A DNA stretch of 64,000 bases, from NCBI RefSeq assembly GCF_019316905.1, contig NZ_CP079216.1:1798001-1862000 (forward strand), written 5' to 3'. This document shows positions 8,526 through 42,438 of the stretch, piece after piece. The notes below the pieces were generated by a model. It was not told the DNA's origin, did not search any database, and saw nothing but the letters and a program-made list of their open reading frames with translations. The translations under genes were made by a program, and so were the position numbers. Position 1 is the stretch's first letter. Each line of letters opens with the position of its first letter. The DNA comes from Tessaracoccus palaemonis (GTDB lineage Bacteria; Actinomycetota; Actinomycetes; Propionibacteriales; Propionibacteriaceae).

Positions 8526-9734
8526 TTGATATCAGAGCATCCGCACACGATCATCGGCGGCCGGTGGAGCATCTACGGGCTCCCGATCCGCGGCGGCATG
8601 AGCGTGCTGTTCCCAGCCGTCGACGGCGCCGGCACAAAGGCGATGATCAAGTTCTCGAAGGTCGACGCCGACGAGTCCATGCGCGCCAGATTCGAGGCCG
8701 AAGGGCGGGCGCTGCTCGCCGCACCGAACCCGAACACCGTGCGGCTGATCGACTCCGGGATGGACGTCCACCCCCAGGCCAGCTCGCGCGCCCCGGTCCC
8801 CTACCTCGTGCTGGAGCACGTCGACGGCGTCACGCTCGACGAGCGGATGCGCCAGACGGGGCCGATGGGCTGGGACGAGGCCGCCGGCATCGCCGTCGGG
8901 GTCCTGAACGGCCTCCGGCACCTGCACGCAGCCGGCATCATCCACCGCGACCTGTGCCCGCGCAACATCATGATCTCGCCCGACGGTCACGCGACCATCA
9001 TCGACCTCGGCATCGCGCTGAGCCCGTCGTCCTCGCCTCGGCTCACGGAGGTCGGCTCCGTGATCGGCAAGTGGAGGTACATGTCGCCCGAGCAGATGGA
9101 CGCGTGCCCCGTCGACCCTCGCACGGACCTGTACAGCCTCGCCGTGGTGCTCTTCGAGCTGCTCAGCGGCCGCCACCCGTTCCCCGTCGGCGACTCCCCC
9201 GCGACGATGCGGGCGAAACAGTCGCCCGACTGGAGTGCGATCTTCCAGTCCTTCCCCGGATCAGCCGCCGTCGGGCAGCTGCTGATCACGGCGTTGTCGC
9301 CTCACCCCGAGGACCGCTACCCGACCGCCGCTTCGATGTCCGACGCGGTGCTGCACGTTGCGTCGTTCGGCGGCACCGCGACGCAGGCCATCGCGTCCGA
9401 CACCGCGACGACCCTCAGGGAAGCCGGGCCGGGCCCGCAGGGGACGCGGGTGCTGCCGACCGATGTGGCGCACACCCGGGTGGAGGCTCCCCTTGCCGTC
9501 CCGACGGCGTCGGCGATCGAGCTCGTCAGCGACGAGAACCGCGCCGTCTTCGACCGGGCCGTCACGGCTGCCCGGGAGCGGATCGACCGGCACGCGGCCG
9601 TGTTCCAGGCGACGATCCGCGGGGCTCTGGAGGAACGCTTCCGACGAGACATCCGCCGCTCTCTCCCGCCGACCATCGCGCTGGGCGTGATCGTCGCGAT
9701 CATCGCCTTCCTCATCACCTGGGGGATGCCGTGA
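8526..9734 (+). CDS. Tail-anchored Ser/Thr protein kinase
   Basis: This 402-residue protein has a Hanks-type kinase domain at about residues 10-285: K42 in the AMIKFSK strand, HRD at 140-142, N147, DLG at 160-162 in place of DFG, and the activation/P+1 segment GKWRYMSPEQ (181-190). The Lys normally two residues after the catalytic Asp is Cys144 (HRDLCPRN), unusual but tolerable. After an about 90-residue juxtamembrane region comes one C-terminal membrane segment at about 377-396 with almost nothing after it, so it is anchored by its tail rather than carrying PASTA sensors. The start is TTG 8526 with GGGAGG upstream. The stop overlaps the next gene (GTGA). Confidence 0.88.
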   Translation: MISEHPHTIIGGRWSIYGLPIRGGMSVLFPAVDGAGTKAMIKFSKVDADESMRARFEAEGRALLAAPNPNTVRLIDSGMDVHPQASSRAPVPYLVLEHVDGVTLDERMRQTGPMGWDEAAGIAVGVLNGLRHLHAAGIIHRDLCPRNIMISPDGHATIIDLGIALSPSSSPRLTEVGSVIGKWRYMSPEQMDACPVDPRTDLYSLAVVLFELLSGRHPFPVGDSPATMRAKQSPDWSAIFQSFPGSAAVGQLLITALSPHPEDRYPTAASMSDAVLHVASFGGTATQAIASDTATTLREAGPGPQGTRVLPTDVAHTRVEAPLAVPTASAIELVSDENRAVFDRAVTAARERIDRHAAVFQATIRGALEERFRRDIRRSLPPTIALGVIVAIIAFLITWGMP

Positions 9735-10000
9735 AGACCCTCGACAGGCTCATCGACTACCTGTTCCGCACCGTCGTCCCCGACGACTACCCCTTCTCGG
9801 GCGCCGACGACCGTGCCGTCAGGACCCGGCTGACGACCCCGTCGCGGACGTCGCAGCTGGTGGTCGACGCCTACCTCAGGGAGAAGGAGGCCCCGCTGCG
9901 GACCGGACGCCGCTACCTGCAGGCGATCCTGGTCCTCGCCATGGGCGTCGCCGGCCTCGTGCTCGGCTGGGTCGCGCACCTCATCGGCTCGGTGGGCTGA
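9731..10000 (+). CDS. Small tail-anchored membrane protein of the kinase-GTPase cluster
   Basis: This 89-residue protein starts at a GTG overlapping the kinase stop by 4 bases (GTGA), so the two are probably translationally coupled. Residues 1-60 are charged and soluble, with a predicted helix around LVVDAYLREKEAPLRTG. A single hydrophobic segment at about 64-86 ends the protein. I recognise no family. The same topology occurs in the flanking kinase and in the product of 11696-13402, suggesting a shared membrane complex. It ends 4 bases before the GTPase start. Confidence 0.75.
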   Translation: MKTLDRLIDYLFRTVVPDDYPFSGADDRAVRTRLTTPSRTSQLVVDAYLREKEAPLRTGRRYLQAILVLAMGVAGLVLGWVAHLIGSVG

Positions 10001-10004
10001 ACCG

Positions 10005-11699
10005 ATGACGGCGTGCTACTTCTGCGGCCACGAGGACGGCGAGTGGCTGACTCTGCTCGTCTGCCAGGTCGGCCACGCCCAGACGTTCCGCCTGTTCCAC
10101 ACGGCCACCGGCCAGCGGGAGGGCATGGGCCGGTGGGATGGGTCGGGTGAGCCGAACCAGCGCTGGACGATCTGCCGCCTCGGCCACATGCGGCCGCGCC
10201 CGATCGCGCAGTCCGGGAGGCGCCGTGCCTGGCACCAGCGGCTGGTCGCCTGGGCCCTGCGCGCCGATGCCGCCCCGACCGAGGCACCCGCCGAGCCGCT
10301 GCGGGAGTCGCCCAACGTCATCCGCCTCCTCGGCTCGACGGGCAGCGGGAAGTCGCAGTTGGTCCGGGCGCTCCGCTTCGAGGCCCAGACGCCCGACCCG
10401 ACGTTCTGCATGATCGAGGGCATCTCGGCCTCGGCCATCGACATCGACCGTCTGCCCAGCCCCGCCGAGGGACCGACCCTCGACGACGGTGCGCTGCTGC
10501 CGACGACCAGCTTCGACAAGACCGCGCGCGACACCCTCCACAACTACCTCGCCTATCTGGGCGGCTGGGAGCAGGCGCAGGAGCTCGACGACCTGCTCGC
10601 GCGCCTCCTGCCCTTCGCCACCGGCGAGGAGATCCGCGACTGGGGCAGCGTGCGCACCCCCTACGTGCTCACGACGTACCAGGAGCGCGGTGGGGCCACC
10701 GCCAAGTCCATCACCCCCATCATCGACCTGCCCGGCGAGATCGTCCGTCACCTCTCCGGCGGCACCGGCTCCGACGAGCCGCTCCCTCCCATGTCCCGCA
10801 GCGACCTCGCACAGCTGAGCTACACCCACCAGTTCGTCGCCGTGATCGACTGCATGTCGCTGGGCGGCGTCTTCGGCGCGCTCGACCCGGCGGAGCGGGA
10901 GGCCGCCCTGCGCAAGAGGTCGAACGTGACCCCCGAGGTGGCCCACCGGATGAGCCGCAAGGAGACCGAGTCCCTGCTGGTCTTCCTGCAGTCGATGGGC
11001 CGCGTCGCCGACGGGGCGACCCGCAGCATCCCGCTCACCCTGTGCCTGGCCAAGTCCGACGCGCTGCACCGCATCCTGGCCCGCCGCCAGGTCGCCCACC
11101 ACGGCCTGGACCGCTGGTCGTTCCTCTGGGCCGACGCCACCGACAAGGCCGCCGCGCTCAACGCCTTCGTCGAGGCCGGGGCCGCCGCGCTCGTCCACCT
11201 CTGCGGCTTCGACGGGGAACGGACCGCGGCGGCCGACCGGCTGCTGCAGCCCATCTCCGCCCTGCCAGGAGGGCAGCGGTTCGCGCGGGCGATGGCGCTG
11301 TCAGCGTCGCTGCTCGCGGACCTCGGGGACTCCGGGGCGTTCCACCGGGTGATCGTCTCCGAGGGGCCGGTGGACCTCCACCTGCCCGGCGGCGGCATCG
11401 TCTCCATGGAGAGCGCCCGCGACTACTGGTTCCTGTCCACCGCCGGGTTCGACCTCATGGCGCGCGATGTCGCCTGCTCCGTCCTCGTGCAGGCGCTGCT
11501 CGCCACCGACTACGGCCGGGACCGGGTCGCAGGGATCAGCGCCCACAGTTCGCACCTGCGCTTCGCGCTCACCAGCACCCGCGAGTTCCTCCCCGGCGAC
11601 GGGCCCGTCCGTGCGGACGACGACCCACGGGCCAGGCTGGCGGAGAACTCCGGGGTGCTCCAGGTGCTGGCCGACGTCCTGCAGGGGGCACTGAGATGA
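10005..11699 (+). CDS. Zinc-finger P-loop GTPase-like protein
   Basis: This 564-residue protein begins with a zinc-binding segment (C4-x2-C7, then C20...H24 and C57...H61). A nucleotide-binding domain follows: Walker A/G1 GSTGSGKS at 110-117, a G3-like DLPG at 241-244 preceded by hydrophobic residues, and a G4-like AKSD at 349-352. These suggest GTP rather than ATP. Residues 400-564 are mostly helical and unassigned. Large soluble GTPases of this kind occur in GTPase-centred biological-conflict systems, often next to a dedicated partner; here the partner would be the next gene, which overlaps by 4 bases (ATGA). A signalling or defence role is inferred from context only. Confidence 0.75.
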   Translation: MTACYFCGHEDGEWLTLLVCQVGHAQTFRLFHTATGQREGMGRWDGSGEPNQRWTICRLGHMRPRPIAQSGRRRAWHQRLVAWALRADAAPTEAPAEPLRESPNVIRLLGSTGSGKSQLVRALRFEAQTPDPTFCMIEGISASAIDIDRLPSPAEGPTLDDGALLPTTSFDKTARDTLHNYLAYLGGWEQAQELDDLLARLLPFATGEEIRDWGSVRTPYVLTTYQERGGATAKSITPIIDLPGEIVRHLSGGTGSDEPLPPMSRSDLAQLSYTHQFVAVIDCMSLGGVFGALDPAEREAALRKRSNVTPEVAHRMSRKETESLLVFLQSMGRVADGATRSIPLTLCLAKSDALHRILARRQVAHHGLDRWSFLWADATDKAAALNAFVEAGAAALVHLCGFDGERTAAADRLLQPISALPGGQRFARAMALSASLLADLGDSGAFHRVIVSEGPVDLHLPGGGIVSMESARDYWFLSTAGFDLMARDVACSVLVQALLATDYGRDRVAGISAHSSHLRFALTSTREFLPGDGPVRADDDPRARLAENSGVLQVLADVLQGALR

Positions 11700-13402
11700 G
11701 CGGCGACTGGACGCTGCAGACGAAGTCGGACACCGGGGCCGGCTACCACCCCAACGCCGACCTCTCGTCGGCGATGATCGACGGCCCCACCAGGTCGCTG
11801 TTCGGGTCACTCGAGCAGAGCTACCGGCAGCTGCCCGTCGCCGACGGGGCTCTGGAGGCCCTGTACGTGCTGACGTGGCGCTTCAGCCCGGAGGCGGGAG
11901 CCTGGCTGACCGTGCTCCAGGGCTCGGGCGGGCGGTACGGCAACGCCGGCGCGACGCAGTTCGCGCTCGCCCCCGCCAGCTGGACGATGGCCGACTGCGT
12001 GACGAGGGCGCTGGCCGACGTCGAGGTCGGCGGCTGGCTGAGTCCGCGGCATGACGGAGGCCCGACTGCTCCGCCGCGGTGCCGCCCCGACGAACTCCTC
12101 CGGCTCCTCGCGACGCTGCTCGACCGGCCCGCACCGCCTGCGGTCACCGTCGTCGAGGCCGCGTCGCCGGCGGCGCTCTTCGCCGCCGCGTCCCGCGCAC
12201 TGCCGGAGGGGATCCTGCGGCGCACCGCCTGGTCCACGTCGGCCGCGGTCCGTCGGCCGGGCCGGGACGGTCCGCTGATCAGCGGACCCTGGCCCGCAGA
12301 CCTCGCTGCCCGATACCCGCAGGAGCACGCCGCCTTCCTCAAGCTCGCCGCCGCGTCGACCGGCGCGCCTCCGCAGCCGCCGAAGGCCGTCGTCTGGGCG
12401 GCGCGGGAGGCCTCCGCCGGTCGCCACCCGGGTCGGCTCGTCGACGCCACCGACCCGCTCGAGTGGGCCGCGGCCCTGGAGCACCGGCGGCCGATGACCG
12501 ACCGCGAGGCGGCAGGCCTGCTGCGCTCGGACGCGTTGGTCGAGGCCGACCGCCAGCGGTGGACCGACGGCGGGCACGCGGCGAAGCTCGTGGCCAGGGA
12601 CCCCGCCTGGCTGGGGCCGCTGCTCGGGCAGCGCATGGCGTGGGTCGCCGAGGGTGTGGCGGACGTCGTGACCCGGGAAGCGCCCTGGGCCGAACTGGTC
12701 CGGGTGCAGAAGGCCGCCGTCCGGCAGGGACGGCCCGCCCCCGCCGCCCTGCGGTCGCTGGCGCCCGTCGACAGGGCCCGGCTGGCCCGCGACGTGCTCG
12801 ACGGCAGCACGGCGCCTGAGCTCCGCGCGGCCGCACCGTGGCTGGAGGCCCTCGGCCTGGACAGGTCCGGCAACGAGGACCTCTTCCCACCCGGCCGCTC
12901 CGATGTCGCCGCCCAGCTGCGCGCCGCCCCCCGCAACGTCGCCGGGGCCATCGAGTTCGCCCGTGGGGAGGCACGCTGGGACGAGGAGCTGGCCGCCCTC
13001 ATGCAGGCCGCCCCCGCGGCCAGGCTCCACCTGCTCGTCGCCCTGGCGCCGTCGAACGCCCTCGCCAGCTTCCTGCGGAAACACCCAACGGCCCTGGCTC
13101 CGGACGAGGTGCCCGACCTGATCGTGGCAGCGGAACGGCTGCAGGGCCGACTGAAGGATCCCGACCGCTTCGTCGTCTCGCTGCTCCGGCAGCTGCACTC
13201 CGCCTCCGGCGAGGACACGCCGCTGCTCGCCGAGCCGTTCGCGGACCAGCAGTCGGCCGCGGCCCTCCGCCTCATGCTGGGTCTGCCGCAGCGGGCGCCC
13301 GCGCGACGCGCGCCGCGGTGGCTGGTCGCACTCATCTGCGCCTCGACCGGGCTCGTCGTCGGCATCCTGCTCGGCTGGCTCCTCCTCGGAGGCCTGCTGT
13401 AG
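11696..13402 (+). CDS. Large tail-anchored protein, probable GTPase partner
   Basis: The 568-residue product starts at an ATG overlapping the GTPase stop. Its N-terminal about 130 residues look globular (TRSLFGSLEQSYRQLP...LYVLTWRFSPEAG). The middle, about 150-530, is alanine/leucine/arginine-rich and helical with no catalytic motif that I can see. One membrane segment lies at about 543-566 and ends the protein. By position and architecture it resembles GAP-like effector or partner proteins that accompany GTPases in conflict systems, but I cannot show homology without a profile search. It closes the four-gene operon. Confidence 0.65.
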   Translation: MSGDWTLQTKSDTGAGYHPNADLSSAMIDGPTRSLFGSLEQSYRQLPVADGALEALYVLTWRFSPEAGAWLTVLQGSGGRYGNAGATQFALAPASWTMADCVTRALADVEVGGWLSPRHDGGPTAPPRCRPDELLRLLATLLDRPAPPAVTVVEAASPAALFAAASRALPEGILRRTAWSTSAAVRRPGRDGPLISGPWPADLAARYPQEHAAFLKLAAASTGAPPQPPKAVVWAAREASAGRHPGRLVDATDPLEWAAALEHRRPMTDREAAGLLRSDALVEADRQRWTDGGHAAKLVARDPAWLGPLLGQRMAWVAEGVADVVTREAPWAELVRVQKAAVRQGRPAPAALRSLAPVDRARLARDVLDGSTAPELRAAAPWLEALGLDRSGNEDLFPPGRSDVAAQLRAAPRNVAGAIEFARGEARWDEELAALMQAAPAARLHLLVALAPSNALASFLRKHPTALAPDEVPDLIVAAERLQGRLKDPDRFVVSLLRQLHSASGEDTPLLAEPFADQQSAAALRLMLGLPQRAPARRAPRWLVALICASTGLVVGILLGWLLLGGLL

Positions 13403-13446: not shown

Positions 13447-14376
13447 GTGAGGATTCTCATTGTCGGGGCCGGGGCCACGGGAGGCGCGTTCGGAGCCAGG
13501 CTGATCCAGGCCGGGCGCGACGTCACCTTCCTGGTGCGGGAACACAGGGCGGAGCAGTTGCGCAGCGAGGGGCTGGCGTTCTCGGCCCCGGACGTGACGA
13601 CGCGGCTCGACGTGCGATGCGTCACCTCGGTGGCGCAGGGCGACGTCTACGACCTGATCATCATCGCGGTCAAGGCCCCTGCCCTCGACGCGGCGATCGG
13701 CACGATCCGCCCCGCGGTCGGCGACGACACGCTGATCCTCCCCCTGCTCAACGGCATGCGCCACATCGAAGCGCTGGTGGAGGTGTTCGGGGCACGCGTG
13801 CTGGGTGGGCTGGTGAAGATCGTGGCCACGCTCGACCGCAACTCCCAGGCGGTCCAGCTGACGACGCTCAGCGCCATGACGATCGGACGGCTCGACGGCG
13901 GCGAGGTCCCCGACGCGGTACGCGAGGCGCTCGACGTGCCCGGCATCCACCTGTCCGTCAGCGGCGACATCATCGGACGGCTGTGGGAGAAGTGGGCCTT
14001 CATCGCGTCGGCGGGCGTGGTGTCCTGCCTGTTCCGCGGGGAGGTCGGAGACATCCTCGAGGCGGGCGGCGAGGAGCAGATCCTGCAGGCCATCGAGGAG
14101 TGCGAGCGGGTGGCCGCGGCCGCCGGCCACACCGTCGGTCGGCAAGGCCATGAGGGTTCCGTCGCCATGCTGACGGAGCCCGGCTCGCACTTCACGTCGT
14201 CGCTCTACCGGGACCTCAGGCTCGGCGACCCGTTGGAGGCCGAGCACATCCTTGGCGACCTCGCCCACCGGGCGAGGTCGGTGGGGGTGCCGACTCCCCT
14301 GCTGGACGCGGCCCTGCTGCAGGTGCGGACCCATCGCGTCGCGCGGGCCCGCACCTCGGCCGGGGTCAGCGCCTGA
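13447..14376 (+). CDS. Ketopantoate reductase-family (PanE/ApbA) oxidoreductase
   Basis: This 309-residue protein has the N-terminal NADPH-binding motif GAGATGGAFGA at residues 7-17, the mid-domain motif LLNGMRH and the family lysine in LWEKWAF. PanE reduces 2-dehydropantoate to pantoate for coenzyme A synthesis. Many genomes carry several paralogues, so this one may act on another 2-keto acid. The GTG at 13447 has AAGGAG about 7 bases upstream. It converges on the beta-repeat gene and the two coding ends overlap by 11 bases. Confidence 0.83.
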   Translation: MRILIVGAGATGGAFGARLIQAGRDVTFLVREHRAEQLRSEGLAFSAPDVTTRLDVRCVTSVAQGDVYDLIIIAVKAPALDAAIGTIRPAVGDDTLILPLLNGMRHIEALVEVFGARVLGGLVKIVATLDRNSQAVQLTTLSAMTIGRLDGGEVPDAVREALDVPGIHLSVSGDIIGRLWEKWAFIASAGVVSCLFRGEVGDILEAGGEEQILQAIEECERVAAAAGHTVGRQGHEGSVAMLTEPGSHFTSSLYRDLRLGDPLEAEHILGDLAHRARSVGVPTPLLDAALLQVRTHRVARARTSAGVSA

Positions 14377-14998
14377 CGCGGGACCCGGAGCCGGACTCGA
14401 CGACGCTGCCGTCGACGTCGTAGCCGCGGTAGGTGAGCAGGTTGCCGGCGTCGTACTCGCGGGCGCTGCCGTCGATCTCGGCGGTCGAGTGGAGCGTCAG
14501 GTTGCCGGAGTTGCGCTCGGTGACGCTGCCGTCGACCTCTCCGTAGACGCGCAGGCCGCCCTCGCCCTTCTCGGTGATGGAGCCGTCGATCTCGCCGGAG
14601 AGACGGATGATGACGCCGCCGTGGTCGGCCTCGGAGATGCCGCGGTCGACGCTGCCGGAGACGCGCACATCGCCCGACCCGGTCTCGGTGACAGTGCCGT
14701 CGATCTCGCCGACGACGGCCACGGAGCCGCTGCCCGTCTCGGTCACGTTGCCCTCGACCTCGCCGGTGCGGCCGATCGTGATGCTGCCGTTGCCCGTCTG
14801 GCGGACGTTGCCGGTGACCTTGCCGTTGATGGTGAGGTTGCCGTCACGGACGATCAGGTCGCCACGGATGACGGTGCGGGCGGCGACGGTGTAGCTGCCC
14901 TTCTTCTCCGTGGTGGGGGCCGCGCTGGCGGTCATCGGAACGAGGGTGGCCAGCAGGCCGATCGCGGCGGTGCCGGCGAGGATGCGGGAGGTCTTCAT
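14366..14998 (-). CDS. Secreted repetitive beta-repeat protein
   Basis: The 210-residue product has a Sec signal peptide (about residues 1-27, ending ASAAP). The rest is a tandem repeat of about 19-20 residues built on G(E/K)(I/V)DG-x-VTE-x-GSG-x-(V/L)-x-V. At least eight copies run from about residue 45 to the end. Alternating hydrophobic residues with regularly placed Gly fit a right-handed beta-helix or bactofilin-like solenoid, here outside the cell. I recognise no named family. The start at 14998 carries the signal peptide and has AAAGG upstream; upstream in-frame codons encode no signal. Confidence 0.72.
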   Translation of the reverse strand: MKTSRILAGTAAIGLLATLVPMTASAAPTTEKKGSYTVAARTVIRGDLIVRDGNLTINGKVTGNVRQTGNGSITIGRTGEVEGNVTETGSGSVAVVGEIDGTVTETGSGDVRVSGSVDRGISEADHGGVIIRLSGEIDGSITEKGEGGLRVYGEVDGSVTERNSGNLTLHSTAEIDGSAREYDAGNLLTYRGYDVDGSVVESGSGSRVRR

Positions 14999-15105
14999 GG
15001 TGGTTGCCTTTCGTGAGCCGCGGAAGCTGCCTTCCGCTGTGATGGCTTCATCCTGTCGGGCATGCATGAGACGCCGGTGACGCCCTAGTGAGAGACCTCT
15101 CATCT

Positions 15106-15933
15106 TCATCGCAGGCACTCGGCGAGGGTCTTCAGCCAGGCGGCGACACCGTCGGGGCCGTCGGCCAGCACGTCGGCCCGGGCCGCCAGGACGGCCTGTT
15201 CAGCCGAGGCGCTGACGACGCGGCAGGTGGCGACGCCCTCGCCGGCCAGCTCGTCGAGGAGGTCGAAGGCTGGCAGGTCACCGAGGTCGTCGCCGCAGAA
15301 CGCGACGGCCGTCGCGCGGGTCTCGGCGACCAGGCCGCGCAGGGCGTCGCCCTTGGTGATGGTGGAGGCGCGCAGCTCGAGCACGCTGCGGCCCGGTTCC
15401 AGCGTGAGGCCGTGGCGCGCCGCGATCCCGCTCAGCGGCCCCTCCAGCGCGGCGAAGGACTCGTGCGGGGAGGCCGCGCGACGCGTGTGGACGCCCAGCG
15501 CGCGACCCTTGTCCTCCAGATGGACGCCGACGAAGCGGTCGTCGGCGAGCAGGTCGACGATCTCGGCGCGCGCCTCGTCGATCCCGGGCGGCACCTCAGC
15601 GGGAGTCTCCTGGCCCGTCGACGCGTCCCAGCGCTCGGCACCGTACTGGCCGAGCACGACGACGTTCTCGAGCCCCTGTCGTTCGTCGAGCCTGCCGAGC
15701 TCCCGCACCGTCGCGACGGCGCGTCCGGTGATGATGGCGATGCGGCCCACGCGGGGGCCGAGATCGGCCAGGGCGTCGGCCGCGGCGGGCAGCAGACGGG
15801 AGTCGGTGGGGTCCGGCACGATCGGCGCCAGGGTGCCGTCGAAGTCCATGGCGACCAGGACTCGGGCCGGGTCGGCCGCCCCCTTGTCGAAGAAGGCGGA
15901 GGCGTCGTCGGTGCGGAGCTCGAAGTCACTCAT
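15106..15933 (-). CDS. otsB: Trehalose-6-phosphate phosphatase
   Basis: This 275-residue HAD-superfamily phosphatase has the nucleophile motif DFDGTLAPI (Asp30 and Asp32), the IITGR motif, a cap domain and the final GDDLGDLPAF acidic motif typical of trehalose phosphatases. It converts trehalose-6-phosphate to trehalose, the second step of the OtsA/OtsB pathway used for osmotic and stress protection. It is divergent from otsA. The ATG at 15933 with GGAG just upstream is chosen; upstream codons run into the inverted-repeat element. Confidence 0.9.
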   Translation of the reverse strand: MSDFELRTDDASAFFDKGAADPARVLVAMDFDGTLAPIVPDPTDSRLLPAAADALADLGPRVGRIAIITGRAVATVRELGRLDERQGLENVVVLGQYGAERWDASTGQETPAEVPPGIDEARAEIVDLLADDRFVGVHLEDKGRALGVHTRRAASPHESFAALEGPLSGIAARHGLTLEPGRSVLELRASTITKGDALRGLVAETRATAVAFCGDDLGDLPAFDLLDELAGEGVATCRVVSASAEQAVLAARADVLADGPDGVAAWLKTLAECLR

Positions 15934-22736: not shown

Positions 22737-22790
22737 GCCGGGAAGTCTAGTGGCACTCTCCAGGGGCTCCCGCACGCGTCCCGCCCAGCC

Positions 22791-22955
22791 GGTTCGCTGA
22801 GCACTTCGCCAAGCGCAGCACAAGCCTGTCGAATGGCACTCCTCCGGTTCCCTGAGCACTTCGACGAGCTCAGCACAAGCCTGTCGAAGGGATCTCCTCC
22901 GGTTCCCTGAGCACTTCGACAAGCTCAGCACATGCCTGTCGAAGGGCCCTGAGCG
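22791..22955. repeat. 55-bp tandem palindromic repeats, three units
   Basis: Units begin at 22791, 22846 and 22901, exactly 55 bases apart. Each contains GGTTCnCTGAGCACTTCG followed by an imperfect hairpin with arms of the CTTCGAC...GTCGAAG type. Related fragments occur at 26925-27055 and inside the DUF222/HNH gene. Confidence 0.9.
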
Positions 22956-22998: not shown

Positions 22999-23121
22999 GG
23001 CTCGGCGACCCGGGAAGGCTCGGCGACCCGGGAAGGCTCGGCGACCCGGGAAAGCTCGGCGACCCGGGAAAGCTCGGCGACCCGGGAAAGCTCGGCGACC
23101 CGGGAAAGCTCGGCGAGCCGA
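22999..23121. repeat. 18-bp tandem repeat, six full units
   Basis: GGCTCGGCGACCCGGGAA is repeated three times from 22999. Three units with a G-to-A first base follow, then a partial seventh from 23107. It fills the gap up to the dgt stop codon. Confidence 0.95.
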
Positions 23122-39919: not shown

Positions 39920-40684
39920 GTGCCTGAGCCTCGCCGTCGCCCCACGCCTCACCCCAGTGGCGCCACCCCGCCCGACCTGCCGAAGAAGGCGCTGCCCCGG
40001 CACGTCGCGATCGTGATGGACGGCAACGGCCGCTGGGCGAAGCAGCGCGGCCTGAAGCGCACGGAGGGTCACGCAATGGGCGAGGCCTCGCTGCTGGACG
40101 TCGTCCACGGGGCCATCGAGCAGGGCATCCCGTACCTGTCGGCCTACGCCTTTTCGACGGAGAACTGGAAGCGGTCGCCGGAGGAGGTGCGCTGGCTGAT
40201 GGGCTTCAACCGCGACGTGATCCACCGTCGTCGCGACGAGCTCAACGACCTCGGCGTCCGGATCCGCTGGGCAGGGCGCCGCCCGCGGCTGTGGGGGTCG
40301 GTCATCAGGGAGCTCGAGGTCGCCGAGGAGATGAGCCGGGACAACACCACGCTGACGCTGCAGTTCTGCGTGAACTACGGCGGCCGGGCGGAGATCGTCG
40401 ACGCGGCCCGCGAGATCGCCCGCCTGGCGAAGGCCGGCAAGCTCGACCCCGACCGGCTGACCGAGGAACGCTTCGCGAAGTTCCTCGACGAGCCGGAGAT
40501 CCCCGACGTCGACCTGTTCCTCCGCAGCTCCGGCGAGCAGCGCACGTCGAACTTCCTCCTGTGGCAGTCGGCCTACGCGGAGTTCATCTTCCTCGACCGC
40601 CTGTGGCCGGACTTCGACCGCCGCGACCTCTGGGCGGCCGTGGAGCAGTACGTGACGCGCGAGCGCCGCTTCGGCACCGCCTGA
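39920..40684 (+). CDS. uppS: Isoprenyl (undecaprenyl) diphosphate synthase
   Basis: This 254-residue cis-prenyltransferase has the catalytic [43 protein letters not shown] and [22 protein letters not shown] blocks. It makes the polyprenyl carrier for peptidoglycan and other wall polymers. The N-terminal 20 residues are a Pro/Arg arm. The start is GTG 39920. Confidence 0.94.
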
Positions 40685-40796
40685 CCGCCCTCGTTCACCA
40701 CACCTCCCCGCCTCAGGCGGCTGCGGCAACGGCGCCACACCCTGACCGCCATCAGCGGCACCGCGCCACGCACCAGCCCACCGCCGGCCGCTTGCC

Positions 40797-40850
40797 GAAA
40801 ATCGGGCAGTGCCCGGTTCTCCCCGGTCCGGTCACGAGAACCGCCCACCG
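40797..40850 (+). repeat. Dispersed 54-bp repeat, copy 3
   Basis: Begins GAAAATCGGGCAGTGCCCGG and contains TTCTCCCCGGTCCGG. With copy 4 it occupies much of the uppS to DUF222 gap (40685-41039), which holds no gene. Confidence 0.85.
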
Positions 40851-40905
40851 CCTCGCCAACTCACCCCCACCCGCCTGCCGCCGCCCTGACCCTTCCGTCT
40901 CCCCC

Positions 40906-40959
40906 GAAAATCGTGCAGTGCCCGGTTCTCCCCGGTCCGGTAACGAGAATCGCCCAGCG
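40906..40959 (+). repeat. Dispersed 54-bp repeat, copy 4
   Basis: Begins GAAAATCGTGCAGTGCCCGG, 109 bases after copy 3 in the same orientation and about 80 bases before the DUF222/HNH gene. Confidence 0.85.
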
Positions 40960-41039
40960 CCTCCCACCCGGTTTCACCCTCAGCGAACAAGCCGAACATA
41001 CGAACGATTTCTGTCGGTGCCGATCTCTACCGTGAACAC

Positions 41040-42051
41040 ATGGAACCAACGACCAGACTCAGCACCCACGCGGCACTGACCGCGATCCGTGCCGCGCTGG
41101 CCGCCATCGACCACCCCCACCGCACCAGCATCAGCCACCGCGAACGCCTCACCCTCCTCCAGACCGCCCGCCGCGCCCAGGGACAGCTCGCCGGACTCGT
41201 GGCCATGCTTACCGGCGAAGCAGAAGCAAACCACTCCGCCGAAACCGTCGCCGGAACCCAGCTCCCCACCCTGCTCGGTCAGCAGGAACACCTCGATGTC
41301 CGCGACGCCCTGCGTTCCGTCACGCAGGCCCGCGACATCGCCCGCCACGACGACGTGGCCCACCGCGTCATCGACGGCAACCTCTCGCCCCAGCACGCCC
41401 AGGCCATCCGCCGCACCCTCGACACCCTCCCCCACACCCTCAACACCGGCCAGCGCGACCACGCACGCTCATACCTCATCGACAAGGCCGCCACCCTCAC
41501 ACCCGGCCGCCTGACCGCCTCCACCGACGACCTGCTGGCCGCCGTCGCACCCGACCTGGTCCCCACCGCCGAGGAACGCGACGCAAGGCTCGCCCGGCAA
41601 CGCACCGACGCACTCGCCCGCCGCTCCTTCACCTGGGGCGAAGACACCACCCACCCCGGCTCCTGGTACTTCAAAGGCTCCCTCCCCACCCTCGAAGCCG
41701 AACAGGTCATCCGCGCGATCACCATCGAGGTCAACCACGCCAAACGCGCCCAACGCCGCCAGCACCGCCGACACGACACACCCCGCTGGGACCAACACCA
41801 GGCCGACGCCCTCACCACCCTCACCACCCACGCCACCCCCATCCGCGACACCGACAACTCCCCCACCACACCGACACCAGCCGCCTCGAACGGCGAACCG
41901 GCTACCTCGGGATCCTCGGGACCCTCACGGACCCGAACCCCAGGCACCCGCCGCGCCGCAGGACACGACACCCCAGCCCCGCTCGCGACCACGGCAGCAC
42001 CGCCAGCCGATCCCCCACAGCCGAAGCCGCCAACCCTTCGACAGGCTCAGG
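41040..42051 (+). pseudogene. DUF222/HNH (13E12-type) gene, 5' part, interrupted by IS3 element
   Basis: The first 337 codons encode the helical DUF222 domain (about residues 1-220) and a long Pro/Thr/Ala linker. The frame then enters the IS element. DUF222 proteins of actinobacteria usually end in an HNH nuclease, which is found beyond the IS (43372-43922). Removing 42052-43367 and one CAGG copy joins the two halves in frame into a 520-residue protein. The linker near the break, translated PTLRQAQ, is itself written by the palindromic-repeat family seen at 22791 and 26925. Confidence 0.88.
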
Positions 42052-42117
42052 TGGGCCTACCCTGGATTTGTGGACACCTGAGTAAGCGGGATCGTGGGTT
42101 CCGCGGGAGGGTGCCTG

Positions 42118-42438
42118 ATGGCAGCAGAGAAGAAGAGTCGTCGGAGGTACACGGCGGAGTATCGGGCCGAGGCGGCTCGGTTGGTGATCGACACCGGGCG
42201 GCCGATCGCGCATGTGGCCCAGGAGTTGGGTATCGGGTCCCAGCTGTTGGGGCGGTGGGTCCAGGCGGAGCGTGATCGGGACGCTGGCGAGCCCGACGGC
42301 GATCTGAGCTTGGACGAGCGGGCCGAGTTGAAGCGGTTGCGTCGGGAAGTCAGCGAGCTACGCAAGGACAACGAGTTCCTGGGAAAAGCAGCTGCCTTCT
42401 TCGCGTCGAAGCCACCACGATCGAACGGTTCGAACTGA
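42118..42438 (+). CDS. IS3-family transposase OrfA
   Basis: This 106-residue protein has a helix-turn-helix (RYTAEYRAEAARLV...HVAQELGIGSQLLGRWV) and a C-terminal leucine-zipper-like helix (LKRLRREVSELRKDNEFL). It binds the element ends. A GGGAAAAGC stretch at 42381-42389 in the overlap can serve for -1 slippage to give the OrfAB transposase. The ATG at 42118 has GGGAGG upstream. Confidence 0.9.
   Translation: MAAEKKSRRRYTAEYRAEAARLVIDTGRPIAHVAQELGIGSQLLGRWVQAERDRDAGEPDGDLSLDERAELKRLRREVSELRKDNEFLGKAAAFFASKPPRSNGSN

Follow-up and report, generated by a model that had tools for sequence, protein, structure and literature searches.

Four adjacent genes of Tessaracoccus palaemonis appear to encode a far-diverged, minimal version of the DO-GTPase2–GAP1 (GAP1-N2-like) systems, which would sit at the inner face of the membrane and act as a membrane switch, probably for conflict or envelope stress. 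We consider this reading, which takes the homology and the membrane-switch role jointly and is indifferent to the trigger, reasonably probable. For its parts, homology to DO-GTPase and GAP1, as judged from sequence profiles, is very likely, and, once that homology is granted, a membrane switch is likely.

A compact, membrane-oriented operon conserved in diverged relatives

The operon occupies positions 8526–13402 of the window (the whole stretch of 64,000 nucleotides that was analysed), spans 4.9 kb and comprises four co-oriented genes in the list of open reading frames (ORFs), all on the plus strand. These encode a PknB-like Ser/Thr protein kinase of 402 residues that begins at a TTG codon (8526–9734; Pfam Pkinase, E = 1.3e-31), a small tail-anchored membrane protein of 89 residues that begins at a GTG codon (9731–10000), a zinc-type P-loop GTPase of 564 residues (10005–11699) and a partner protein of 568 residues (11696–13402). 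The tight packing described in the first-pass annotation was borne out, with 4-base overlaps at the kinase/small-gene and GTPase/partner junctions and a 4-base gap between the small gene and the GTPase gene. Likewise, three of the four proteins are tail-anchored as it had stated: at a hydropathy cut-off of 1.6, a single C-terminal membrane segment is found in the kinase (residues 380–398 of 402), in the 89-residue protein (66–84, with ~65 residues preceding it) and in the partner (546–564 of 568), and none is found in the GTPase. Among 170 other mechanically called ORFs from ten stretches of the genus, one has a comparable tail.

Four further Tessaracoccus genomes (L014–L017) contain these genes in unchanged order, so that the block is found in 5 of 39 genomes of the genus, its own included; none was seen outside the genus in a search of limited sensitivity. 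One of these blocks (L017) is a near-identical relative of that in the window. The proteins of the other three are only 24–34% identical to their counterparts in the window, and the flanking genes differ. Because gene order is kept in diverged relatives with other neighbours, we regard the block as a real conserved unit. Indeed, the coordinates of L014–L016 give 4-base overlaps at the kinase/small-gene and GTPase/partner junctions and a 1-base overlap at the small-gene/GTPase junction, the partner gene lying directly downstream of the GTPase gene in all three as in the window, and C-terminal membrane segments recur on the kinase, the partner and the small protein of these relatives (measured in L014, and by eye in L015 and L016). 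Comparison of the window with a 96–98% identical relative gave dN/dS values of 0.27 for the kinase, 0.16 for the GTPase and 0.24 for the partner, which are under purifying selection; the value of 0.60 for the small gene rests on 5 differences. The genes are thus kept together across genomes, and the membrane-oriented kinase–GTPase–partner unit put forward in the first-pass annotation is real, conserved and, in our assessment, of conflict-system type.

Profile comparisons point to DO-GTPase2 and GAP1

The GTPase carries the motifs previously noted, namely G1 (GSTGSGKS, residues 110–117), a G3-like DLPG within DLPGE (241–245) and a G4-like AKSD (349–352). In a four-row alignment K116 and D241–E245 are invariant; AKSD varies, reading SKSD or SKGD in relatives. 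Consistent with the zinc-binding start proposed earlier, the N terminus has one CxxC...CxxxH set, a putative zinc site whose residues C4, C7, C57 and H61 are invariant in all four sequences. The 2020 description of these systems reports N-terminal zinc ribbons in 60% of DO-GTPase2 members and a conserved Walker-B glutamate (Kaur et al. 2020, PMC7159879). The latter is also present here, as E245 of DLPGE aligns with the glutamate of FDxAGE in DO-GTPase2 references.

By profile–profile comparison (hhalign), the GTPase matched a set of 17 DO-GTPase2 sequences, all of which match PF19993 (15 of 17 over its cut-off), with Prob 96.4 and P = 1.2e-9 over 203 columns. Controls were far weaker, with P = 0.045 for the best shuffle (198 scored of 200), 0.57 for the reversed sequence and, at best, 1.2e-3 over 20 P-loop columns for 25 other GTPases. 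Two of three reference sub-sets failed, the five zinc-type or the seven short DO-GTPase2 sequences alone giving 1.1% each, and the last 200 residues of the GTPase (its C-terminal tail after G4), which have no domain assignment, scored no better than 100 shuffles (Prob 0.4). Neither the GTPase nor its three homologues (four homologues in all) matched PF19993 at E = 10 or below, and the predicted model was unusable (mean pLDDT 32.5; four input sequences, single chain).

The partner, in turn, matched 17 GAP1 sequences chosen from PF20013 matches over cut-off (eight from Tessaracoccus and nine others) with Prob 89.8 and P = 1.8e-6 over 411 columns, as against 0.24 for the best shuffle (198 scored of 200) and 0.19 for the reversed sequence. 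The alignment stays in register from residue 15 to residue 486 of the partner, runs through GRYGN (79–83) and the M-domain core LPEG...WSTS (169–182), and covers the three domain ranges that Pfam gives to reference GAP1, corresponding to an N2-like N domain, the M domain and part of the C domain. In relatives, the GR-x-GN-like motif reads GHYGP or GEYGP. With the eight Tessaracoccus GAP1 sequences alone the probability was 0.2%, versus 79.6% (P = 1.5e-5) with the nine non-Tessaracoccus sequences alone. Searches of the partner family with PF20013, PF20014 and PF20052 returned nothing over cut-off, the sole hit being GAP1-M at E = 0.12 in one of four homologues, and the N and M regions of the predicted partner model are of low confidence.

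On these profile matches, the GTPase is a predicted far-diverged relative of DO-GTPase2, and the partner is, by the same measure, one of GAP1. The place of the partner gene, adjoining the GTPase gene on its downstream side, is also that of GAP1 genes beside DO-GTPase genes. The HMM–HMM comparison that the first-pass annotation had called for therefore found a family for each protein, both below Pfam cut-offs, and its statement that two members had no recognisable family no longer stands. These results suggest that the family reaches beyond current Pfam models; its spread is therefore probably underestimated.

The kinase and the small protein set the operon apart from known systems

The best PDB matches of the kinase are PknB chains (E = 3.6e-37), and K42, E59, D142, N147 and D160 fall in invariant alignment columns, such that its catalytic residues are complete and activity is predicted. 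Its TTG start is backed by alignment with the start sites of relatives. The kinase domain is shared with PknB/PASTA kinases; the window kinase, by contrast, is tail-anchored, has no PASTA match and ends 4 residues after its membrane segment, leaving it with no extracellular sensor domain. A match to a well-studied family, which would have argued against a new system, was found for the kinase alone and for none of the other three proteins.

The 89-residue protein has no Pfam or NCBIfam match over cut-off and no PADLOC or PHROGs match. It is 24–26% identical to 82-residue counterparts at the same position in three relatives, making it the least conserved of the four (30–34% for the others). As the sole component with no assigned domain, it is the likeliest candidate for a membrane output (an effector) or a signal input.

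The association of DO-GTPase, GAP1 and a kinase at the membrane was predicted computationally in 2020 as the 'third theme' of GAP1-N2 systems; this theme has a catalytically complete kinase, often with a transmembrane segment or zinc ribbon, PP2C and vWA genes usually adjoin, and a C-terminal transmembrane segment on GAP1 is among the features described for these systems (PMC7159879). The operon shares with this theme, so far as described there, a zinc-type GTPase with the Walker-B glutamate, a GAP1-like protein with a tail segment, a kinase with a membrane segment and an actinobacterial host. It differs in having one GTPase, the extra 89-residue protein and core proteins that both fall below Pfam cut-offs, and in that a scan of its four proteins and of four neighbouring ones in the window (three of other families, one with no match) gave no PP2C, vWA or FNIII match; FNIII repeats are described as rapidly evolving (PMC7159879). 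In contrast, a third-theme locus that we compared (L064) has a kinase, PP2C, a vWA-like gene and two DO-GTPase2 genes, and its kinase shares with that of the window only a 102-residue stretch at 29%.

Canonical GAP1-N2 clusters with PF20013 GAP1 also occur in this genus (L029, L031, L032 and L073–L077), and in all but L032 the cluster also contains a DO-GTPase2 of zinc type. Their GTPase has ~323 residues as compared with 564 in the window, and the kinase HRD...N motif appears in no ORF of the eight clusters (10–20-kb stretches). PF20013 was found in 10 of 39 genomes and the window block in 5 of 39, with no overlap, an outcome that has a probability of 0.21 by chance. Thus, the operon is not undescribed in the sense first proposed, given that the membrane association of DO-GTPase, GAP1 and kinase was already set out in the 2020 prediction (PMC7159879); the novelty lies in the reduction to four genes, in a PknB-like kinase with a membrane tail and in the 89-residue protein. 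One tentative interpretation, which we hold to be possible, is a previously undescribed, minimal and self-contained DO-GTPase–GAP1 subtype made up of four proteins, of which three are anchored by their tails; a PknB-like kinase would substitute for PP2C, vWA and FNIII, and the 89-residue protein would be the effector. Such a system could be the smallest of its kind and the simplest to reconstitute and test.

A candidate membrane switch and its alternatives

In the mechanism we envisage, the GAP1-like partner would recruit the soluble zinc-type GTPase to the membrane and gate it there, the GTP state of the complex would serve as a threshold switch, and the tail-anchored kinase would set or relay that switch by phosphorylating the partner, the GTPase or the small protein, with the 89-residue protein acting as membrane effector or signal input. 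The trigger would most likely be an invader or a related envelope insult, as proposed for the family, and the outcome may be growth arrest or a membrane change rather than gene regulation, which is disfavoured because no DNA-binding part was recognised in the four proteins. Nor was any effector recognised.

A conflict role is somewhat favoured over the same family serving as a housekeeping or envelope-stress unit, in which the PknB-like kinase would sense the membrane or cell wall and the GTPase–GAP1 switch would adjust growth. Rather unlikely overall, that alternative draws on the kinase's closeness to PknB, the slow evolution between close species, a mention of DO-GTPases for membrane-related stress in a further paper (PMC11237479) and the surroundings of the operon. 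In particular, a dihydroxy-acid-type dehydratase is among the recognised neighbours, as is a ketopantoate-reductase-like protein; a 29-residue stretch of the latter gave the single PADLOC match obtained from nine neighbours (E = 0.0096), which we discounted. There was thus no convincing defence gene among the nine, and a location in a defence island, which the first-pass annotation had suggested checking, was not supported. However, the patchy spread through varied neighbourhoods is unlike that of a housekeeping pathway, and the kinase lacks the extracellular domain with which it would sense.

Less likely still is a special form of our preferred explanation, an abortive-infection-like module whose 89-residue protein is a membrane toxin restrained by the kinase or the GTPase complex; the low conservation and domainless character of this protein would agree with it, as would the SLATT membrane effectors found fused to GAP1 in the family (PMC7159879), but a single membrane segment with a short cytoplasmic part would be just as suitable for an anchor or adaptor. 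Were the operon instead unrelated to DO-GTPase and GAP1, having arisen independently around a generic P-loop NTPase, the lack of Pfam-level matches for the GTPase and partner and the failing sub-sets would be accounted for; this is improbable in view of two separate profile matches that link neighbouring genes to neighbours in a known system, with controls far weaker.

Conservons (CvnA–D) comprise a roadblock protein, a DUF742 protein, an MglA-type GTPase and a histidine-kinase-like protein. A conservon-like G-protein system is suggested by an actinobacterial operon whose four genes include those for a GTPase and a kinase (conservons, too, are GTPase operons of four genes in actinobacteria). 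It is highly improbable and contradicted by domain content, as none of the matches of the four proteins belongs to a roadblock, DUF742, histidine-kinase or MglA-type family, the kinase is of Ser/Thr type, the GTPase has 564 residues, and the families of kinase, GTPase and partner differ.

DO-GTPase–GAP1 systems are known so far as genome predictions. Across 5.39 million open papers searched we found no experimental test of them, with 'DO-GTPase' appearing beyond the 2020 prediction only in passing, in one paper, and 'GAP1-N2', 'Double-GTPase' and 'GTPase-associated protein 1' only in the 2020 paper and one on alignment methods. The membrane switch proposed here, with a single GTPase, GAP1-like protein, kinase and small membrane protein encoded in 4.9 kb, is compact enough to be transferred whole into a laboratory strain, which could make the idea of a threshold switch against invaders at the membrane directly testable.

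Operon organization and membrane tails

The ORFs called in the window place the Ser/Thr kinase at 8526–9734, the small protein at 9731–10000, the GTPase at 10005–11699 and the partner at 11696–13402. These coordinates agree with those of the first-pass annotation, as does the packing, in which two junctions are 4-base overlaps and the third is a 4-base gap. A simple scan revealed no terminator-like sites in the operon region; the single promoter-like match from such a scan overlies the kinase start and means little. The annotation had also proposed a C-terminal membrane segment in three of the four proteins, and hydropathy analysis bears this out: the kinase, the small protein and the partner each contain one strong hydrophobic segment that stops 4–5 residues short of the C-terminus, and the GTPase contains none at the same cut-off. 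Only 1 of 170 other ORFs (a mechanical ORF set from ten stretches of the genus) has a comparable tail, so the tails of three of the four operon proteins do not reflect background. Positive residues flank membrane segments on the cytoplasmic side (the positive-inside rule), and reading of the sequences places arginines just ahead of the tail segment in all three proteins; together these would give the enzymatic parts a cytoplasmic location.

The kinase matches Pfam Pkinase (E 1.3e-31), and the PDB structures closest to it are those of PknB (E 3.6e-37). Its residues Lys42, Glu59, Asp142, Asn147 and Asp160 occupy invariant alignment columns, and presumably have the catalytic roles assigned from kinase biochemistry.

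Family assignment of the GTPase and the partner

Neither the GTPase nor the partner scored above any curated cut-off or gave a match of note against PADLOC or PHROGs. The sequences had suggested the DO-GTPase–GAP1 systems of Kaur et al. 2020 (PMC7159879), and both proteins were compared with two reference sets by profile–profile alignment in hhalign. For GAP1, there were 20 PF20013 matches, all above the cut-off, of which 17 were used (the non-Tessaracoccus references stop at the edge of their stretch); for DO-GTPase2, there were 17 references (5 zinc-type, 5 membrane-type and 7 short), all of which match PF19993, 15 of them above its cut-off. The partner aligned with the GAP1 profile over 411 columns (Prob 89.8, P 1.8e-6), with its residues 15–486 in register with reference GAP1 residues 20–554, an alignment spanning the Pfam GAP1-N2 and GAP1-M ranges of the reference plus most of GAP1-C. 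The GTPase aligned with the DO-GTPase2 profile from upstream of the P-loop to past AKSD (Prob 96.4, P 1.2e-9); its last 200 residues received no family assignment. Column shuffles (200 each, 198 scored) gave lowest P values of 0.24 for the partner and 0.045 for the GTPase, reversed profiles gave 0.19 and 0.57, respectively, and kinase and cross-comparison controls gave Prob 0.1–0.3. Against 25 ordinary GTPases from its own and related genomes, the best P for the GTPase was 1.2e-3, over 20 P-loop columns.

The profile signal hinges on diverse reference alignments, since some reference subsets fail. The relation of the partner was detected with the nine other GAP1 sequences alone (79.6%, P 1.5e-5) and went undetected with the eight Tessaracoccus GAP1 sequences alone (0.2%); that of the GTPase was detected with membrane-type DO-GTPases alone (96.2%, P 2.4e-9) and went undetected with zinc-type or short DO-GTPase2 alone (1.1% each). 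The Walker-B glutamate, a DO-GTPase hallmark according to Kaur et al. 2020 (PMC7159879), is invariant in the alignment of the GTPase with its homologues (DLPGE). Equally invariant is the CxxC/CxxxH zinc-type start of the GTPase, a predicted zinc site. The GAP1-like GRYGN of the partner is not conserved in the relatives, which have GHYGP or GEYGP.

The structure model of the partner (mean pLDDT 60.6) is reliable only over residues ~261–480, a helical repeat array, and ends in a tail helix; fold searches with it returned generic helical-repeat likeness and nothing more. The GTPase model, with a mean pLDDT of 32.5, is unusable. The family claims thus rest on sequence profiles, by which we assign the GTPase as a relative of DO-GTPase2 and the partner as a relative of GAP1.

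Conservation and distribution

The operon lies in a 3.2 Mb, single-contig genome. When 60 genomes were searched with the GTPase, 7 showed a match, its own genome included; two of these were discarded as weak on inspection. By profile search, 5 of 39 genus genomes are positive: its own, a 98% identical relative and three others with identities of about 34%. The three diverged loci retain the complete four-gene set with order and strand unchanged, at identities to the window of 34% for the kinases, 24–26% for the small proteins, 33–34% for the GTPases and 30–32% for the partners. Hydropathy measurement located the tail membrane segments in L014, one of these loci; in the others they can be seen by eye in the alignments. 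Their gene neighbourhoods are unlike that of the window, and their upstream sides are also unlike one another. With only three candidates scored per genome listed, a class-wide search of 394 genomes gave no match beyond its own genome, and an order-wide search of 391 genomes with the partner profile gave none beyond the same five. Compared with the 96–98% relative, dN/dS is 0.27 for the kinase, 0.16 for the GTPase and 0.24 for the partner; the value of 0.60 for the small gene comes from five differences. The partner of genome G023 (L016:7110–8678) lacks about 50 profile positions (376–426) in the C-domain region, and its single frame runs through the tail TM.

Comparison with DO-GTPase–GAP1 systems

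In Kaur et al. 2020 (PMC7159879), DO-GTPase and GAP1 form a constant pair, N2-type GAP1 often bears C-terminal TMs, and an active kinase, usually adjoining PP2C and vWA genes, occurs in 10% of GAP1-N2 neighbourhoods, in actinobacteria only. Like these kinase-type systems, the operon combines a GTPase, a GAP1-like protein and a kinase; unlike them, it gave no match to PP2C, vWA or FNIII among its four proteins and the four neighbours scanned, a scan that rapidly evolving FNIII repeats could escape. At the kinase-type reference locus L064, two DO-GTPase2 genes accompany genes for a kinase, a PP2C and a vWA-like protein, and a GAP1 gene (L044) lies in the same stretch. The operon kinase is not close to the L064 kinase, the match being limited to 102 residues at 29%. 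PF20013 was found in 10 of 39 genus genomes, and no ORF with the kinase HRD...N motif was found in eight 10–20 kb stretches of the genus with canonical GAP1-N2 clusters. Such clusters occur in other Tessaracoccus at L029, L031, L032 and L073–L077, where the DO-GTPases, where found, are short and zinc-type.

Membership of theme three, the GAP1-N2 neighbourhoods with a kinase, was set aside: the scores lie below curated cut-offs, and no PP2C/vWA feature emerged from the four proteins and four neighbours scanned. On these grounds we file the operon as a new variant within the DO-GTPase–GAP1 kind. Our searches of an open-access library found no experimental test of DO-GTPase–GAP1 systems; PMC11237479 mentions DO-GTPase in passing.

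Proposed mechanism and role

The operon products most likely act as a membrane-surface switch, in which the GAP1-like partner would tether the GTPase to the membrane, a threshold would be set by GTP binding and hydrolysis, the tail-anchored kinase would modulate or relay the switch, and the small tail-anchored protein would serve as output or input. What the sequence analysis shows is how the proteins are related to known families, that their genes form an operon, that three of them carry membrane tails and that the key residues of the kinase are intact; we infer the contacts, activities, trigger and outcome. The family and the patchy distribution lead us to favour a role in conflict, although no defence gene stood out among nine operon neighbours in the window. 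That the operon instead serves envelope stress is a live rival to the conflict role.

Neighbouring genes and other features of the window

A putative PIN/VapC-like ORF follows the operon in two relatives (L014:12059–12448 and L015:9147–9536 (minus strand)). In the window, the operon is followed by a ketopantoate-reductase-like gene (Pfam ApbA, 13447–14376), and the genes directly upstream of the G023 operon (L016:1763–3908) are, we presume from how they read, panC/panD/panB; the pantothenate-type neighbours at both operons may be a coincidence. At 14366–15118, a predicted protein with a long series of V-x-G-x-V/I-T-E-x-G near-repeats is perhaps a beta-helix. The stretch 40001–42000, where base composition is strongly skewed locally (GC skew -0.23, AT skew 0.22), overlaps in part an ORF (41040–42275) that we take to resemble a truncated 13E12/HNH-type repeat protein. 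Two tandem repeats lie at 22789–22947 (a 55-base unit in 2.9 copies, containing the inverted arms CTTCGACA and TGTCGAAG) and at 23000–23120 (an 18-base unit in 6.7 copies, 98%).
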